Assembly (NCBI GenBank): GCA_903891095.1
Contig: CAITDI010000036.1
Coordinates: forward strand, 1 to 64,000
DNA from: an uncultured bacterium
GTDB lineage: Bacteria; Planctomycetota; Phycisphaerae; Phycisphaerales; SM1A02
Direction: 5' to 3'
Length of the DNA stretch: 64,000 nt
Shown here: in pieces, positions 25,837 through 32,992 of the stretch
How the letters are laid out: every line of letters starts with the position of its first letter
Position numbering within the stretch: position 1 is the first letter of the stretch
Program-made: the position numbers and the translations under genes
Notes under the pieces: model-generated
Told to the model about the DNA's origin: nothing
The model's input: only the letters and a program-made list of their open reading frames with translations
Database searches by the model: none

Positions 25837-27312
25837 TCACCAGCGCGAGAGCAGGATCGCGAGGTCCACCGAGTCGACGAAGCCGTCGGCGTTGAGGTCG
25901 GCGCGCGTCCAGATCGGAGTCGGTCCCCAGTTGCCGAGGATGGACGCAAGATCCGAAGCTCCGACGACGCCGTCGCAGTCGATGTCGCACATCGGCGGGG
26001 CAACCGGGCTCAGCTTGACGACACCGCTCGCCGACACGCGCGCCTGGCCAAGCTGGCCTGCGAAGGTCGGGTTCTGGAAGTCGACGGATGCGCCACTGTC
26101 GGCGATCATCGCGAGGATGCGGCTGCGGATCTGCGTTGCCGGCACATTGGTGTTCGGCCACTGCGGATTCTGCGAGCGGACGAGCGCAACCGTTCCGCTC
26201 ACGAACGCGTTCGCGAACGAGGTGCCCTTCCACACGGCGAACTGGCCGCCGGGGATCGGTCCGATGATCGAGTGATCGAGACGCGGAACGCCGTTGAGGA
26301 TCTCCGTGTGTCCCGGAGCCGCGATATCCATACGGATATCCCAGTTCGAGAACGGAGCGCGGACATCGTTCCAGTCGAGCGCGGTGACGCCAAGCGCGGT
26401 CGCCTCGCACGCGGGGTACTGGCGCACGGAATTCGAGTTGCCGTTGCCCGCTGCACCGCAGATCACGATGCCCTTCGAGTCGGCCTCGTTGACCATGTTC
26501 ACGATCGACTGCGAGTGGTAGCTCTCGCCGAGGCTCATGTTGATGACATGCGCGCCGCGGTCGATCGACCAGGCGATCGCCTGCGCGATGCGGAAGTTGT
26601 TGCCGCGGCCTTCGCTGTCGAGCGCGCGCGCCGAGAGGATCATCGCGTCGGGAGCGACAAGGTGGATCAGTCCCGCGACGAACGTGCCGTGTCCGACCTG
26701 CTCGTCGATGAAACCGTCGCCATCGTTGTCGATGCCGTCGCCGACGTCGTTGAAGTTCGTCGAGCCAGGAACAAAGCTCGCGCCCTGCGTGCTGACGGCG
26801 CCCGAAAGCAGCGGATGTGCCGCATCGATGCCCGTGTCGATCACGGACACCACGACGCCTGCGCCACGCGAGCTCTTGTGCGCGACATCGACGCCCATCA
26901 GCGGGCTCGCGTACTGCGCGTTGAACTGCTCGGCGCTCAGACCGAGACCCGAGAGCCACAGGCTGTCGGTCTGGCCTTCGCCGGTCTGGCCGGTGTAGTT
27001 GAGTTCTTCCCAGCTCAGCGTGCCTTGCTGGGTCAGCGCCCTGAGCGCGTTCTCAAACTGGTCAACCGTCTGGTTGCCGTTGAGCTGGTACGAGATCAGG
27101 TAGATCGGGCGACCGTTGATGCGGTCGATGACTCCCACGCCGGCAAACTGCTGCGAAAGCGATGCGATCGCCTGCGCGAGTGCCTTTGGCGTCGCAGCGC
27201 GCACGACCGCCTCGCCCGGAACGGGCGGCGGGCCTTGCGGAAGACCGCGGGCGATGGCCGGCAGAGGCAACATCGCAGCGATGAATGCTGTGAGAGCAAT
27301 GATCTTTTTCAT
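25837..27312 (-). CDS. Secreted subtilisin-like serine protease (S8) with dockerin-like tail
   Basis: A 491-residue protein. A Sec signal peptide covers about residues 1-22. A propeptide-like domain (about 30-110) follows, then a subtilase catalytic domain with Asp159 (SVIDTG), His208 (GHGTFVAG), oxyanion Asn290 (AAGNGNS) and Ser365 (GTSFANA). The C-terminus (442-491) has two EF-hand-like loops, CDIDCDGVVGASDL and ADLNADGFVDSVDL, as in Phycisphaerae exported proteins. The ATG overlaps the stop of the TPR-CHAT gene (ATGA), so it is the last gene of that operon. The triad is complete, so it should be active once exported. Confidence 0.93.
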   Translation of the reverse strand: MKKIIALTAFIAAMLPLPAIARGLPQGPPPVPGEAVVRAATPKALAQAIASLSQQFAGVGVIDRINGRPIYLISYQLNGNQTVDQFENALRALTQQGTLSWEELNYTGQTGEGQTDSLWLSGLGLSAEQFNAQYASPLMGVDVAHKSSRGAGVVVSVIDTGIDAAHPLLSGAVSTQGASFVPGSTNFNDVGDGIDNDGDGFIDEQVGHGTFVAGLIHLVAPDAMILSARALDSEGRGNNFRIAQAIAWSIDRGAHVINMSLGESYHSQSIVNMVNEADSKGIVICGAAGNGNSNSVRQYPACEATALGVTALDWNDVRAPFSNWDIRMDIAAPGHTEILNGVPRLDHSIIGPIPGGQFAVWKGTSFANAFVSGTVALVRSQNPQWPNTNVPATQIRSRILAMIADSGASVDFQNPTFAGQLGQARVSASGVVKLSPVAPPMCDIDCDGVVGASDLASILGNWGPTPIWTRADLNADGFVDSVDLAILLSRW

Positions 27313-30131
27313 GACAGTGACCCAGTGACGACAAAGGGTGCCCACCACGAAGGATGGCCCCATTTCAGGATCGAGGCAAGTACCGCGGAGCGAAGAGCCG
27401 TAGATGGTCGCTTGCCTTTAGAGATTTCCTGATGGAACGAGGTCGATACCTCGAGCGCCGCCTGATCTCGGACGGACCAAAGTCCGGCCACCAGGCAACG
27501 CGCTCCAGCCGCGAGGAATGCGCGACTGATACCTGCGAGTTCGTCGCCGGCGTCCACGGCGTTACGACCCGTCTCACAACCTGCAAGAAACACGAAGTCC
27601 GCGTCGAGCTCGAGCGCGACGATGTCGCGCACCGGCATCCAGCCGTCGGCAAGCCGAAGGCCCGATGCAGTCGGAAGCGCACCGATAAACCGACCGTGAC
27701 ACGCAAAGTGCAGCGCGGAGCGTCCGCGCACGGCGTCGCGCACACGCGCGATCGTCGCTTGTGATCCCTCGAGCACATCGGCGCCGCGCGCGGCGGCGAT
27801 CGACTGGGCCTCGCGCTCGATGAGCGGGGCCTGTTCGTCCGCGACGGCGACCACCAGCGGGCGATCGTTGGTGGCGTTGCGCGACTCGCGCTCCGCACAC
27901 GCGATCGACGCGCTCGGCGCCGTCTGGATCTCGAATCGTTCGATGAGGTACTTGTCGCCGTCGGTGAGCGCGGCGAACGGCAGCGCATGCAGCGCGCCGA
28001 AGGGCACGATCACGAGGCGCTTGGCGTCGGCGACCGAGGCGCGCTCGGCCAGGATCGGAACGATCAGCAGGTCGTGCAGCGCGCGCGAAAGCGCCTTGAT
28101 CGCGCGGTTGCTGCGCGCATCGGCGCTGCGCACGCCGGCGCGGAGCTGGTAGAGGAACTTGTCGACAAGCGGCCCGAGCTCGGACGCCTGCGCAATGCAG
28201 CGCACCGAGGTGATCTCGCCGCGCTGCGCGACGAAGGCCATGAGCTCCTCGCCGGCGATGAAGTACGCGATCATCGCGTCGTCGTTGTCGAGGCGCGCAA
28301 GCACCTCGTCGGCGCCGAGCGGCTGCGCGAACAGCGACGCCACGCCGCGAGCGCTCTGCTCACGGGTGAGGAGGCGGTCCATCGCGCCTTCGGTCTCGCG
28401 GAGTTCATCGAGAAGCGCGGGCGAAACGCCACGACGCTGGCCGCTGTCGCCGGCATCGCGAGCGACGCTCGAGTGCAGCGCCGCGAGGCGTGCGCGGAGG
28501 CGCGCGATCTCGTCGCTGGACGTATCGCTGGACGTATCTCTGGACTTGGCAGGCGAAGCGCCCGTGCGGTCGATGTTGCGGAGCACGGCGTCGAGCAGCA
28601 CGCGGCTGCGCGCGCGCTCGACGGTCACGAACGCGTCGGCGAGCGACTTCGGATCGGCCTGCGCGAGCAGGTCGAGCGCGAGATCCTCGTACACGCGCAG
28701 GCGCGACGAAGCGAACGCCGAGCGCAGGCGATCGGCGGCGAGCGAACCGCGAAGGTCTTCGGCGATCTCCACCGCATGCGAAAGCGCGGCGATCGAGCGC
28801 GGGAGCGAGCCCTTCGCGCGTTCCGAGTCGGCCTCGATCAGCGCGGCGTCGATCTCGACCACGCGGACGCCGAGCGCCGCGGCGCCGGAGCGCGCGCTGC
28901 GCGCGGTCTCGAGCGCGCGGTCGGTGTTTCCAAGTGCGAGTTCAGCGCGGGCGGCGCGCACGAGCGCGCGGGCGCTGTCGAGCGGGCTCGCGTCGCGCAT
29001 GGCGATGGCGGCGAGATCCGCGGATTCCTGTGCGTTTCCTTCGCGCAGCGCGAGCTCGCTCGCGACCAGCGCCGACGCGCGCATGCCGCGCGCATCGCCG
29101 ATTTCATCGGAAAGCGCGAGCGCGCGCGCCGCAGCGGGCTTGGCTTCGGCAACGCGATCGGCGGCTGCGAGAGCGCGCGCACGGACCAGGAGTCCGCGCG
29201 CCATCTCGGCCTTGAGTCCCTTGTCGGATGCGGTTGCAAGCGCCGAGTCGACGGCGGCAAGCGCTTCGCCATTGGCGCCGAGCACCGCGAGTGCCTCGGC
29301 TTCCTCGAGCAGGAGTCGTGCGTGGTGACCGGGCGCGATCTTCGCGACCATCTGCGACGCGCGGTCGAACTCGCGCAGCGCGTCGCCAAAGCGGCCCTCG
29401 CGTGCGAGGAGGTCGGCGCGGTTGCCGACGACGATCGCGTGCGCGAACGGCAGCGTGGTGAGCAGCGCCTCCGCTCGGTCGAAGGCGGCGTGCGCCTCGG
29501 CCAGGCGGTCGAGCTGGAGCAGAGTTTCGCCGAGCGTGTTCTCTATGGTTCCGCGCGCGCCGGTCTCGGCGGCGGGGATCCCTGCAAGCGCGCGCTCGAG
29601 GCACGCAAGCGCTTCGCTCTGCTCACCGCGGATCTTGTGCACGTTCGCGAGGTTGAGCTCGGCGCGTGCGGCAAGGTCCCGTCGTCCTGCGGTGTTCAGA
29701 GCGTCACGCGATGCGCGACCTCGTTCGATGGCCTCGGCAGTGCGGCCGAGCTTGGCAAGCGCGTGCATCGAGGCGACGCCTGAGCGGGCCTTCTCGACGC
29801 TGTCGCCTGCGCCTTCTGCAACAGCCTGTGCCTCGGCGGCGCGCACCAGCGCTTCGTCGAGGCGACCCATGTAGGCAAGCGCGGGAATCGTCGCACGCAG
29901 CGCGCGAGCGCTGGCGCTTCCCGAACCAACCGCGACGGCCACCGCAGCAAGCGACTCGCCCGCGCTCAAAGCACGCTCGGGCGAACCAGCTGCGATCCGT
30001 TCACACTCATCCGCGAGCGCCACGATCGCCGCGGCAGCGCCACGGGAATCACGCGCGACCGCGTCCGCTCGAGCGCTCTCTGCGAGCGCCTCGAAAGCAG
30101 CGAGGTCCAGCTGGCTGGGGGAGCCGTTCAT
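27309..30131 (-). CDS. TPR-CHAT protein (caspase-like peptidase)
   Basis: A 940-residue protein without a signal peptide, so cytoplasmic. Residues about 20-480 are Ala-rich helical repeats of TPR type. A linker at about 500-560 contains a duplicated DTSS segment. The C-terminal CHAT domain (about 620-940) has the catalytic pair His812 in HFACHG and Cys852 in LAGCETG. CHAT domains are caspase-family peptidases often driven by TPR or other sensors. The stop overlaps the subtilase start, and the start overlaps the stop of the upstream beta-sandwich gene, each by 4 nt, indicating translational coupling. Confidence 0.92.
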   Translation of the reverse strand: MNGSPSQLDLAAFEALAESARADAVARDSRGAAAAIVALADECERIAAGSPERALSAGESLAAVAVAVGSGSASARALRATIPALAYMGRLDEALVRAAEAQAVAEGAGDSVEKARSGVASMHALAKLGRTAEAIERGRASRDALNTAGRRDLAARAELNLANVHKIRGEQSEALACLERALAGIPAAETGARGTIENTLGETLLQLDRLAEAHAAFDRAEALLTTLPFAHAIVVGNRADLLAREGRFGDALREFDRASQMVAKIAPGHHARLLLEEAEALAVLGANGEALAAVDSALATASDKGLKAEMARGLLVRARALAAADRVAEAKPAAARALALSDEIGDARGMRASALVASELALREGNAQESADLAAIAMRDASPLDSARALVRAARAELALGNTDRALETARSARSGAAALGVRVVEIDAALIEADSERAKGSLPRSIAALSHAVEIAEDLRGSLAADRLRSAFASSRLRVYEDLALDLLAQADPKSLADAFVTVERARSRVLLDAVLRNIDRTGASPAKSRDTSSDTSSDEIARLRARLAALHSSVARDAGDSGQRRGVSPALLDELRETEGAMDRLLTREQSARGVASLFAQPLGADEVLARLDNDDAMIAYFIAGEELMAFVAQRGEITSVRCIAQASELGPLVDKFLYQLRAGVRSADARSNRAIKALSRALHDLLIVPILAERASVADAKRLVIVPFGALHALPFAALTDGDKYLIERFEIQTAPSASIACAERESRNATNDRPLVVAVADEQAPLIEREAQSIAAARGADVLEGSQATIARVRDAVRGRSALHFACHGRFIGALPTASGLRLADGWMPVRDIVALELDADFVFLAGCETGRNAVDAGDELAGISRAFLAAGARCLVAGLWSVRDQAALEVSTSFHQEISKGKRPSTALRSAVLASILKWGHPSWWAPFVVTGSLS
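28513..28536. repeat. 12-bp tandem duplication inside the TPR-CHAT gene
   Basis: GCTGGACGTATC occurs twice in succession, followed by a third diverged unit (TCTGGACTTGGC). It encodes the repeated Asp-Thr-Ser-Ser segment between the TPR and CHAT parts and keeps the frame. Confidence 0.85.
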
Positions 30132-30838
30132 CCGGCGGCTCCCTCATCCTTCGAGGTTGGCTTCGAGGCTGGACCAAGCGGCAACACAATCGTCGGGTGG
30201 AGTTCACCGGTCGCGGCACGCGCGCTCACGGCAACTTCACGGGCATCGCTGGTCAGTGCGATGGCGAACATTCCAATCGAGTCGGTCTCATCGGTCGCGA
30301 TCACCATGCCCGAGGCATCGAGCAGGGCGACCGTGGCGCGGACAGGCATGTCGTCGGTGCGGGCGACTTCGCCCACGAGCCGGACGATGCCGTTCTGCGC
30401 GGGGGTGCGCTCGGCGCGGATCACGATCTCGGCGGAGTCGATCACGGCCTCAAGCACGTCTGCGCCGCGGTCGTCGCGGACGCCAGCCAGCGCGAGCTCG
30501 CCGTCAGGTCGGAGCCAGTCGAGGACGACGGCACCGGCACGGTCGAAGGCCTGGCCCAGGATCGCGATCGGCGAGGTCGACTCGGCGCGCCGCGACTCGA
30601 GCCGCACGCCCAGCGCCTTGGCGCGGGCGACGACGTCGGCGGGGGGTTCCGTCATCGCGTCGCCGCGCATGGCGGTGATCGCGTTCGAGAAGTCCTTCAG
30701 GATTTCGGAAACGCGCTGGTCGCTTGAAGCGGCCGCGCGAACTTGTGCCTCGAGTGCAGGTCCACCCTCGCCGGCGGCAACAGTCGCGATCTGTTCGATC
30801 GTGACTTTCTGGCGGGGGTTGAAGTTCCAACTGGTCAT
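30128..30838 (-). CDS. Uncharacterised beta-sandwich protein of the CHAT operon
   Basis: A 236-residue cytoplasmic protein; no signal or membrane segment. The first 80 residues look helical (KVTIEQIATVAAGE, DQRVSEILKDFSNAIT). Residues about 130-225 have alternating hydrophobic strands (GIVRLVGEVAR, VRATVALLDASGMVIATDE, GMFAIALTS, EVAVSARA), like a carboxypeptidase-regulatory or Ig-type beta-sandwich. It lies between an ECF sigma gene and the CHAT gene, overlapping the latter by 4 nt. It could be an adaptor, a CHAT substrate, or a non-membrane anti-sigma factor; sequence alone does not decide. Confidence 0.72.
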   Translation of the reverse strand: MTSWNFNPRQKVTIEQIATVAAGEGGPALEAQVRAAASSDQRVSEILKDFSNAITAMRGDAMTEPPADVVARAKALGVRLESRRAESTSPIAILGQAFDRAGAVVLDWLRPDGELALAGVRDDRGADVLEAVIDSAEIVIRAERTPAQNGIVRLVGEVARTDDMPVRATVALLDASGMVIATDETDSIGMFAIALTSDAREVAVSARAATGELHPTIVLPLGPASKPTSKDEGAAG

Positions 30839-30959
30839 CGCTGTTTCAATCCGGACCCTGGGGGCCCACTGACCTGCGCCACAAAGGAACTTGGATATGC
30901 GGCTCCGATACAGACTTCTGACGAGAATGCACCAACGGCGGGAAGTTGTTGTTGCACAA

Positions 30960-31583
30960 TCACTTGCCCGCCTCAAGATCAGGAGATTCGGACCCTACCT
31001 CGTCGGCATCTCCGAAGCCAAGCCGTCCGAGAATCTTGGAAAGCTTCTCAAGGCAGCGGGCGCGCGTCGGTCCGATCGAACCCACGCGGATGTCGAGCTT
31101 CTCCGCGATCAGGTTGTAGTTGGGCTCGGCGCCGGCGCCGAAGAGCGCCTCAAGCAGATCCTTGCACTTGCCGCCGAGCTGCTCGAGGCCGATGCGGACG
31201 AGTTGCTTCTCGCCGAGCGCCCGGCTGTCGGCGGCATCTTCGCGCTCGTCGACGGGGTCCATCGTCTTCTCGGGATCGGAGTCGAGCGACCGCGCGCGTT
31301 CGCCGTCCTTGCGACGTTGCGCACCAACGCGCCAGCAGCGGCGCTTGGTCGTGGTGACCAGCCAGCTCGCGAGCCCCGCGTCATCGGTGATCGAGTCGAT
31401 GTGCTGCACGAGCGTGGCGAACACGTGTTGAAACACGTCTTCCGCCTCTTCCTGCCGCATGCGATGCTTGAGGATCACCGACCACACGAGCCGTCGGTAG
31501 CGCTCGACGAGCAACGACCACGCCGCGGAATCACCACGGCGACAGCGCTCAAGCAGCGTTGGATCGGAGTCGAAGCCGGACAC
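30960..31583 (-). CDS. ECF-type RNA polymerase sigma factor
   Basis: A 207-residue sigma factor. Region 2 is clear (LVERYRRLVWSVILKHRM, EEAEDVFQHVFATLV, LASWLVTTTKRRCW). Region 4 is recognisable as a helix-turn-helix (YNLIAEKLDIRVGSIGPTRARCLEKL). A charged linker joins them. The start is GTG 31583 with TACACT ending 10 nt upstream. The next gene, 121 bp downstream, begins the beta-sandwich/CHAT/subtilase set, so this sigma factor is the likely regulator, possibly of its own operon. Confidence 0.88.
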   Translation of the reverse strand: MSGFDSDPTLLERCRRGDSAAWSLLVERYRRLVWSVILKHRMRQEEAEDVFQHVFATLVQHIDSITDDAGLASWLVTTTKRRCWRVGAQRRKDGERARSLDSDPEKTMDPVDEREDAADSRALGEKQLVRIGLEQLGGKCKDLLEALFGAGAEPNYNLIAEKLDIRVGSIGPTRARCLEKLSKILGRLGFGDADEVGSESPDLEAGK

Positions 31584-31593
31584 GAGAGCGCGC

Positions 31594-31599
31594 AGTGTA
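31594..31599 (-). promoter_or_regulatory. Putative -10 box of the ECF sigma gene
   Basis: TACACT on the minus strand ends 10 nt before GTG 31583, giving a leader of only about 3-4 nt; no SD. Confidence 0.4.
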
Positions 31600-31679: not shown

Positions 31680-32138
31680 TCAGCCGCAAGCTCCCGATGC
31701 CCCGAGCACGGCCCCGAGCACGGCCCCGAGCACGGCCCCGAGCACGGCCCCGAGCACGGCCCCGAGCACGGCCGCGAGGTCGGAGCCGTTGACGATGCCG
31801 TCGCCGCCGACCCCCGCATCGCCCCGAGCGCGTCGCCGCGACTCCGCGATCGACCGGTTGCGCACATGAAAGAGGAGTCCGTTCAGCAGCCACCGCCGCA
31901 GCGGGAGCCCGCTGTCGAGCCAGCGCTCGAGATAGGTCGGGTCGCCGAGCCGCGCCGCGAAGAAGTCGTTGACCAGCTCGGCCGAGTCGCCGAAGTTCCG
32001 CAGGCTCGACCCCTTCACATACGCCCGCAGCGGCTCGAAGTACCGCGCCATGATGTGCTGCGCGACCTCGTCGTTGGCGACGCCGACGCGCTCGGACAGC
32101 CAGGTCTGATGGGTGGTCGGGAAGTGATCGCGGGTCAT
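31680..32138 (-). CDS. Truncated ECF sigma fragment fused to a dockerin-like, repeat-expanded tail
   Basis: A 152-residue ORF. Residues 1-106 resemble sigma region 2 (AQHIMARYFEPLRAYV, DSAELVNDFFAARL, LPLRRWLLNGLLFHVRNRSI). Region 4 is missing. The sequence instead passes into GGDGIVNGSDLAAVLG, the EF-hand motif of the dockerin-like module usually found at the end of exported proteins, then into AVLG repeated by a 12-bp microsatellite. A cytoplasmic sigma fragment with an exported-protein tail is not a known architecture. It may be a pseudogene formed by deletion between two genes, or a real short protein. Confidence 0.55.
   Translation of the reverse strand: MTRDHFPTTHQTWLSERVGVANDEVAQHIMARYFEPLRAYVKGSSLRNFGDSAELVNDFFAARLGDPTYLERWLDSGLPLRRWLLNGLLFHVRNRSIAESRRRARGDAGVGGDGIVNGSDLAAVLGAVLGAVLGAVLGAVLGAVLGASGACG
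31701..31772. repeat. Six perfect 12-bp tandem repeats
   Basis: CCCGAGCACGGC is repeated six times without mismatch. On the minus strand it encodes Ala-Val-Leu-Gly units at the C-terminus of the sigma-fragment ORF. The perfection suggests recent expansion by slippage, so the copy number may vary between strains. Confidence 0.97.
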
Positions 32139-32341: not shown

Positions 32342-32992
32342 ATGGATCCCATTCGCGGGCCCGTGAACGATGACTGCTCCGACCTCGCGGCGTTCGACGC
32401 CGGCGACCGGGAAGCGGGCAGACGGCTCTACGACCGACACGCACCACTGATCTTCGCGCTGTGCCGCGAGGAGACAGGAGTGCGCTCGGCACGAGACGCA
32501 GAGGACGCCGTGCAGGAGACCTTCCTGCGCGCCTTCCGCATGCGCGACCGTCTGACCGACTGCACCGGTTTCCGTCCGTGGCTCTACGCGATCGCGCGGC
32601 TCGTTTGCAAGGAACGCCGGAACACGCGCGCCAAGGAACGGCGCGACCTCGGCTACGGACTCGACGCCTCGCGCGATGCATCGCGCCAGGCGGCCAACGA
32701 AGGAACCAAGCGAATGCCGAACCACACCATGCAGGGCCTGCTCGAGAAGGCGGGAGGCGCGAGCGCCTCGTCGTCGCTCGAGCAACGCGAGCTCATGGCG
32801 CAGCTCGGGAGCGCGATCGACGCGCTCCCCGAGGACCTGCGCCTGGCGCTCCACCTCTTCTACATCGAACCAGACCCTGTCGACGCCGCGAAGCGCGCGC
32901 TCGGGATTTCCCGCGCGCAGTTCTACCGGCTCGTCACGCAGGCACGCGAACTCATTGCCGCGCAGCTCACGCGCGAGGACCACACGTCATGA
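32342..32992 (+). CDS. ECF-type RNA polymerase sigma factor
   Basis: A 216-residue sigma factor. Region 2 reads LYDRHAPLIFALC, DAEDAVQETFLRAFRM and FRPWLYAIARLVCKERR. A variable Ser/Gly-containing linker follows, and region 4 includes LPEDLRLALHLFYIE and AKRALGISRAQFYRLVTQAREL. Its stop overlaps the start of the giant VIT/vWA membrane protein (ATGA), an arrangement usual for sigma/anti-sigma pairs. No SD or close -10 box is clear upstream. Confidence 0.9.
   Translation: MDPIRGPVNDDCSDLAAFDAGDREAGRRLYDRHAPLIFALCREETGVRSARDAEDAVQETFLRAFRMRDRLTDCTGFRPWLYAIARLVCKERRNTRAKERRDLGYGLDASRDASRQAANEGTKRMPNHTMQGLLEKAGGASASSSLEQRELMAQLGSAIDALPEDLRLALHLFYIEPDPVDAAKRALGISRAQFYRLVTQARELIAAQLTREDHTS

Follow-up and report, generated by a model that had tools for sequence, protein, structure and literature searches.

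In the 64,000-nt stretch of planctomycete DNA analyzed here (the window), an operon on the minus strand encodes two unrelated proteases beside an ECF sigma factor, which raises the question of how these proteases are related to the activity of the sigma factor. Reading of the open reading frames together with Pfam searches placed all four genes on the minus strand in the order ECF sigma factor, 236-aa middle protein, TPR-CHAT protein and exported S8 protease, with a 121-nt gap between the first two genes and ATGA overlaps at the other two junctions:

30960..31583, minus strand: ECF sigma factor, 207 aa, GTG start (Sigma70_r2 43.8 bits; TIGR02937 66.4 bits)
30128..30838, minus strand: middle ('beta-sandwich') protein, 236 aa, a putative soluble anti-sigma factor (homology and AF2 model)
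30128..30131, minus strand: ATGA stop/start overlap between the middle and CHAT genes, 4 nt in most planctomycete relatives too
27309..30131, minus strand: TPR-CHAT protein, 940 aa, no signal peptide (Pfam CHAT 183.6 bits, TPRs; AF2 pLDDT 88.5)
27309..27312, minus strand: ATGA stop/start overlap of 4 nt between the CHAT and S8 genes (from gene coordinates)
25837..27312, minus strand: exported subtilisin-like S8 protease, 491 aa (Peptidase_S8 146 bits; Sec signal, prodomain, C-terminal dockerin-like repeats)

The coordinates and domain scores confirmed the first-pass annotation of this locus, which had described a GTG-started sigma gene, a beta-sandwich protein, a TPR-CHAT protein and an S8 protease with 4-nt overlaps linking the last three genes, and had correctly pointed out that the subtilase has an export signal and the CHAT protein has no signal peptide. 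Further upstream, a short ORF (window 31680-32138, minus strand) has an N-terminal part resembling an ECF-type sigma region and then passes into a minisatellite with a 12-nt unit (GTGCTCGGGGCC repeats, encoding LGAV); it looks like a decayed or truncated gene. A second ECF-sigma-like gene (window 32342-32992, plus strand) lies on the strand opposite to the operon, and downstream of it a long ORF, extending to 36930 on the plus strand, resembles VIT/von Willebrand-type proteins.

Searching 60 relatives for CHAT produced 30 loci, all of which were read over their whole length. The same gene order, whose comparison had been suggested as a check, was kept in all 24 relatives with a contig reaching far enough, and the start and position of the sigma gene were conserved; where the sigma gene was missing from a CHAT locus, the contig ended there. 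Each locus with enough contig had a middle gene region of roughly 200 aa, in which no clean middle ORF was resolved for L054 and L057. A cross-phylum scan, in which CHAT peptide patterns were run against 85,000 genomes, yielded 79 loci, 50 of which were contig-complete on both sides. Sigma was present in 39 of these 50, the middle protein in 35, S8 in 36 and all three in 33, proportions that are biased to the CHAT subfamily of this cassette because of the peptide patterns used; the 11 loci without sigma were other CHAT architectures. The cassette occurred in Planctomycetota, Chloroflexota, Acidobacteriota, Betaproteobacteria (Rubrivivax and Aquincola) and, in rearranged order, Actinomycetota, and a sigma profile derived from the window matched actinobacterial sigmas at 1e-38 to 1e-52. 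This arrangement is more than chance. Distance matrices of the four proteins were correlated over 38 loci (r 0.73-0.86; permutation maximum 0.22), as expected of a co-inherited cassette, with common species descent contributing to these values. Tandem cassettes were also observed: sigma-mid-CHAT-S8 was followed by another set in L124 and L125, and CHAT-S8 by sigma-mid-CHAT-S8 in L152.

The gene neighborhood itself is not new, since it is already recorded as ECF54. As summarized in PMC8999054 (citing Casas-Pastor 2021 and Huang 2015), the ECF54 context comprises an ECF sigma factor with carboxypeptidase-like, subtilase and CHAT proteins, and it is recorded as having no anti-sigma factor. Our cassette resembles ECF54 by gene context, having all three of these accompanying proteins, and the actinobacterial loci L171, L175, L176 and L179 have the ECF54 make-up. 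The proposal published there for ECF54 (PMC8999054) is that no anti-sigma factor is involved and that the subtilase, the carboxypeptidase and the CHAT protein degrade the sigma factor itself, thereby keeping the system off. In the middle protein of our cassette, the following parts could be delimited:

30581..30799, minus strand: predicted anti-sigma domain, a three-helix bundle (residues 14-21, 26-39 and 41-61) plus a helix at 67-86 ('helix 4') (AF2)
30470..30526, minus strand: low-confidence linker between the anti-sigma helices and the beta-sandwich, residues 105-123, pLDDT mostly <50 (AF2); candidate CHAT cleavage region
30179..30487, minus strand: Ig-like/MG-like beta-sandwich, residues 118-220 (AF2 and Foldseek)

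In class-I anti-sigma domains (ASDI), three helices form a bundle, which in about half of the known members contains Hx3Cx2C, and a fourth helix accounts for most of the contacts with sigma2; zinc-binding and non-binding forms are intermixed (PMC7406223). The AF2 model of the window copy (pLDDT 81 overall, >95 in the first helices) has this plan of a three-helix bundle and a separate helix 4, and its gene lies directly beside that of the ECF sigma factor. Pfam gave no match above cut-off for the window copy, zf-HC2 included, and the zinc-ligand positions are A36/D40/V43 instead of Hx3Cx2C, with the helices retained; the assignment of this copy thus rests on homology to zinc-bearing relatives. 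Among 42 aligned middle proteins, seven had Hx3Cx2C at one set of alignment columns, and three more proteins that were not part of this alignment had it as well. Such homologues were found in Chloroflexota and Acidobacteriota (for example, HVATCGEC in L128 and HMNSCERC in L139), and zf-HC2 exceeded the Pfam cut-off of 22.2 in L128 (23.4) and L147 (25.2). In addition, the N-terminal profile of the middle protein matched proteins encoded directly after other, unrelated ECF sigmas. As neither a signal peptide nor an evident membrane segment is present, the protein should be soluble. Based on this homology and the predicted fold, it is well supported that the middle protein is a soluble class-I anti-sigma factor, which would bind the adjacent sigma factor. 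The lineages without the bundle (Actinomycetota and betaproteobacterial Rubrivivax) retain the helix-4 segment and the sandwich, and with the helix-4 part only, their mode of sigma binding may differ.

Foldseek returned weak matches of the model to MG/Ig-like domains and left the helical domain unmatched, and the sub-threshold matches, including Erythro-docking and NikL, were rejected as chance. ChrR of Rhodobacter sphaeroides offers an architectural parallel, in that it too has a soluble zinc anti-sigma domain ahead of a beta-structured one (E 0.43, a sub-threshold sequence match). The C-terminal domain of ChrR is a cupin, and ChrR responds to singlet oxygen rather than to a co-encoded protease.

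These features make degradation of the sigma factor itself very unlikely as the function of the cassette, even though it is the published proposal for ECF54: the supposed carboxypeptidase carries an anti-sigma domain, its carboxypeptidase match is to a regulatory-like domain and not to a peptidase, and the subtilase, with its predicted export, could not meet a cytoplasmic sigma factor. Compared with the ECF54 description, the carboxypeptidase-like protein here is related to class-I anti-sigma factors, with the full zinc form in Chloroflexota and Acidobacteriota. The first-pass annotation had left the middle protein as adaptor, substrate or anti-sigma factor; the anti-sigma role is the one that is now well supported, and a further role as the substrate of CHAT appears to be the likeliest mechanism. 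The residues by which the CHAT protein could act on it are as follows:

27318..28094, minus strand: CHAT protease domain
27696..27698, minus strand: predicted catalytic His812, aligned with Csx29 H615
27576..27578, minus strand: predicted catalytic Cys852, aligned with Csx29 C658

Both the CHAT domain match and the His/Cys dyad of a CHAT peptidase were found in this protein, the only CHAT gene product in the window genome (98.6% complete), and the dyad was conserved in every relative with contig coverage. Mutating H615/C658 of Csx29 abolishes cleavage (PMC10028731). In searches of the PDB, the CHAT profile matched Csx29 (1e-12) and DdvA (7.1e-11), followed weakly by separase, and the AF2 model had its best fold matches in Csx29 (4e-16) and separase. 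Csx29 cuts Csx30, the inhibitor of the ECF factor CASP-sigma. Craspase (Csx29/Csx30/CASP-sigma) and our cassette are alike in encoding a TPR-CHAT protease, a sigma inhibitor (a putative one here) and an ECF sigma factor together, as well as in the positions of the catalytic dyad. A second parallel is DdvS/DdvA of Myxococcus xanthus (PDB 8rot, 8rw5 and 8rlz), where anti-sigma and CHAT form one polypeptide, a natural fusion. DdvA, however, is a transmembrane anti-sigma factor, whereas the anti-sigma and CHAT proteins here are separate and predicted to be soluble, and a subtilase is added. The PDB entries 8rot and 8rw5 list DdvA, this anti-sigma factor, as a CHAT domain-containing protein.

Taken as a whole, a CRISPR-free, protease-gated ECF sigma switch seems to us a reasonably probable model. 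At rest, the ECF sigma factor would be held in the cytoplasm by the soluble class-I anti-sigma factor, with its N-terminal helices and C-terminal beta-sandwich. Some intracellular signal would be received by the TPR arm of TPR-CHAT, possibly helped by the beta-sandwich as a docking or sensing domain; the His/Cys protease would then cut the anti-sigma factor, the flexible stretch that links helix 4 to the beta-sandwich being the likeliest site, and set the sigma factor free. On the other hand, CHAT might control sigma without cutting: the TPR scaffold could strip or sequester the anti-sigma factor by partner switching, with the protease directed at another substrate, such as itself or a cell-death substrate. 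We regard this as unlikely. The TPR superhelix does make up the larger part of the CHAT protein, and the middle proteins share no conserved cleavage site, their linkers varying by lineage; however, the Craspase orthologues described in PMC11106740 also cut non-conserved sites, the dyad is conserved throughout the relatives, and for Csx29, the nearest relative with a solved structure, the substrate is a sigma inhibitor whose gene neighbors that of an ECF sigma. Cleavage of the anti-sigma factor by CHAT is the reading that we prefer.

Under the preferred cleavage model, the freed sigma factor would transcribe the anti-sigma-CHAT(-S8) operon from a promoter of the type GTAT-N-CTCTG, providing feedback. 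Two promoter-like elements were located in the window:

31594..31599, minus strand: TACACT, resembling a -10 element, with its end 10 nt ahead of the sigma start codon; shared by genus relatives
30882..30911, minus strand: GTATCG-N16-TTCCTTTG, a weak version of the motif, between the sigma and middle genes; candidate sigma-dependent promoter

The first is probably a housekeeping, leaderless promoter. The second corresponds to a conserved promoter-like motif, GTATTT/GTATC-N16-CTCTG, found upstream of the anti-sigma gene across phyla. Its strict form (GTATTT-N15-18-CTCTG) was present in 12 of 49 sigma-middle gaps and in none of 200 dinucleotide shuffles. For a looser form, the count was 30 of 49 (shuffle mean 0.18); the other 19 gaps had not even this form. 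Spacers of 16-17 dominated, and the motif was absent from the opposite strand of the gaps in the 49 loci. From this position and conservation, the sigma factor itself would appear to read the motif. The window promoter has TTCCTTTG in place of CTCTG; the operon site was the sole match to GTATC-N17-YTCYTYTG in the whole window genome, which is a weak test because the pattern was partly shaped on that site. The genus form of the motif was too degenerate to define a regulon in the window's own genome, its single match being the operon itself. A common promoter motif is a further difference from the ECF54 description. The first-pass idea that one sigma factor governs a regulated proteolytic module is strongly supported by synteny, co-inheritance and this common motif.

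The exported subtilase carries the Asp/His/Ser triad and the export signal expected of its kind, along with a weak dockerin match in Pfam. Asp159/His208/Ser365 were conserved in every relative with contig coverage, and an export signal was present wherever the N-terminus was read, with a lipobox-like sequence in place of the Sec signal in Rubrivivax and Aquincola. Such predicted export makes it unlikely that the subtilase meets CHAT or sigma. In L133, L135, L136, L139, L145 and L153, where S8 does not overlap CHAT, the motif lies 29-91 nt upstream of S8, and in L151, where S8 is apart from CHAT on the other strand, the motif is found upstream of S8 as well. S8 was missing near CHAT in L121. 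Given the export signal and the sigma motif of its own in several lineages without CHAT overlap, the subtilase looks like a regulated output and not a partner. The first-pass annotation had seen a tension between two proteases of different predicted location, one of which would have to cut the other before export; this is best resolved in the opposite way, with the subtilase as probably neither substrate nor activator of CHAT.

Alternatively, the subtilase could form a second signaling arm, maturing outside, cutting a surface protein and feeding the signal back. Its translational coupling to CHAT in planctomycetes and its strong co-inheritance with sigma (r 0.81) agree with such an arm, yet the conserved cassette contains no transmembrane receptor, and the protease can be missing near CHAT (L121) or separate with its own sigma motif (L151). 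Overall, this seems improbable, and we keep to the subtilase as output. Other outputs were suggested by a genome-wide search in 12 genomes, which gave 51 strict motif sites compared with 13 for the reversed pattern, so that about a quarter of the matches are expected by chance. Paired orthologous targets recurred downstream of the motif: exported DUF7305-like proteins (52% identical) in the phototrophic Chloroflexota Chloroploca and Oscillochloris (L209 and L233), and a glycosyltransferase (50% identical) in two Chloroflexota. A sugar transferase and further glycosyltransferases were also found downstream of it. Hence the freed sigma factor may turn on not only the exported subtilase but, in some lineages, exported proteins and cell-surface glycosyltransferases. 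In Rubrivivax (L228:1501), the motif also lies upstream of a second, unlinked middle-protein gene.

Pairing of CHAT with ECF sigma occurs in conflict systems, and the closest solved relative of our CHAT protein is CRISPR-associated; the cassette could accordingly serve in defense or abortive infection in the manner of Craspase and sense phage nucleic acid via some partner. We find this hard to credit. PADLOC gave no match for the sigma factor, the middle protein or CHAT, the 98.6%-complete genome has no Cas1, and the predicted targets are exported and envelope proteins instead of nucleases. Nor does a Cas7-11 gene lie beside the cassette; judged on this and on the genome-wide Cas1 result, the cassette does not fit type III-E CASP/Craspase, which comprises Cas7-11 and a CRISPR array. 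The CHAT protein scored 58.5 bits against the Csx29 family, below the curated cut-off of 300 bits, the window-derived sigma profile had no match to type III-E CASP-sigma, and an hhalign comparison of the middle protein with Csx30 gave no significant match. Another difference from Craspase is the exported subtilase. Full-length homology of the middle protein and Csx30 was rejected on the hhalign result, only the zinc anti-sigma motif being common with one Csx30. Descent of Csx29 from the cassette was also rejected, as Csx29 clusters with CHATs from outside the cassette in the CHAT-domain tree (local supports 0.72-0.96), although its very long branch limits this placement. Separate recruitment is thus a more likely source of the common wiring than descent.

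What appears to be new is the anti-sigma identity of the 'carboxypeptidase' protein, the promoter and regulon, the cross-phylum spread and the match to Craspase wiring, some of which the primary ECF classification may record. In our judgment, the chances are about even that anti-sigma cutting by TPR-CHAT is a widespread CRISPR-independent ECF switch that an ECF54-type cassette employs in five phyla or more, with Craspase and DdvA as separate recruitments and with an anti-sigma factor in a group recorded without one. If so, the Craspase mechanism, in which a caspase-like protease cuts a sigma inhibitor, would be a general bacterial signaling device and not a CRISPR peculiarity, and ECF54-type sigmas would gain a partner and a promoter as well as a first regulon, made up of the exported protease, exported proteins and glycosyltransferases. 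The proposed partner, promoter and regulon are open to direct testing in bacteria that can be cultivated, for instance Aquincola tertiaricarbonis. Finally, Planctomycetota also yielded two genuine type III-E CRISPR loci (L195:14254-15792 and L196:13651-15384); Csx30 of L196 gave no anti-sigma zinc match, whereas zf-HC2 (32.8 bits) and a further Hx3Cx2C, both anti-sigma zinc motifs, occur in that of L195.
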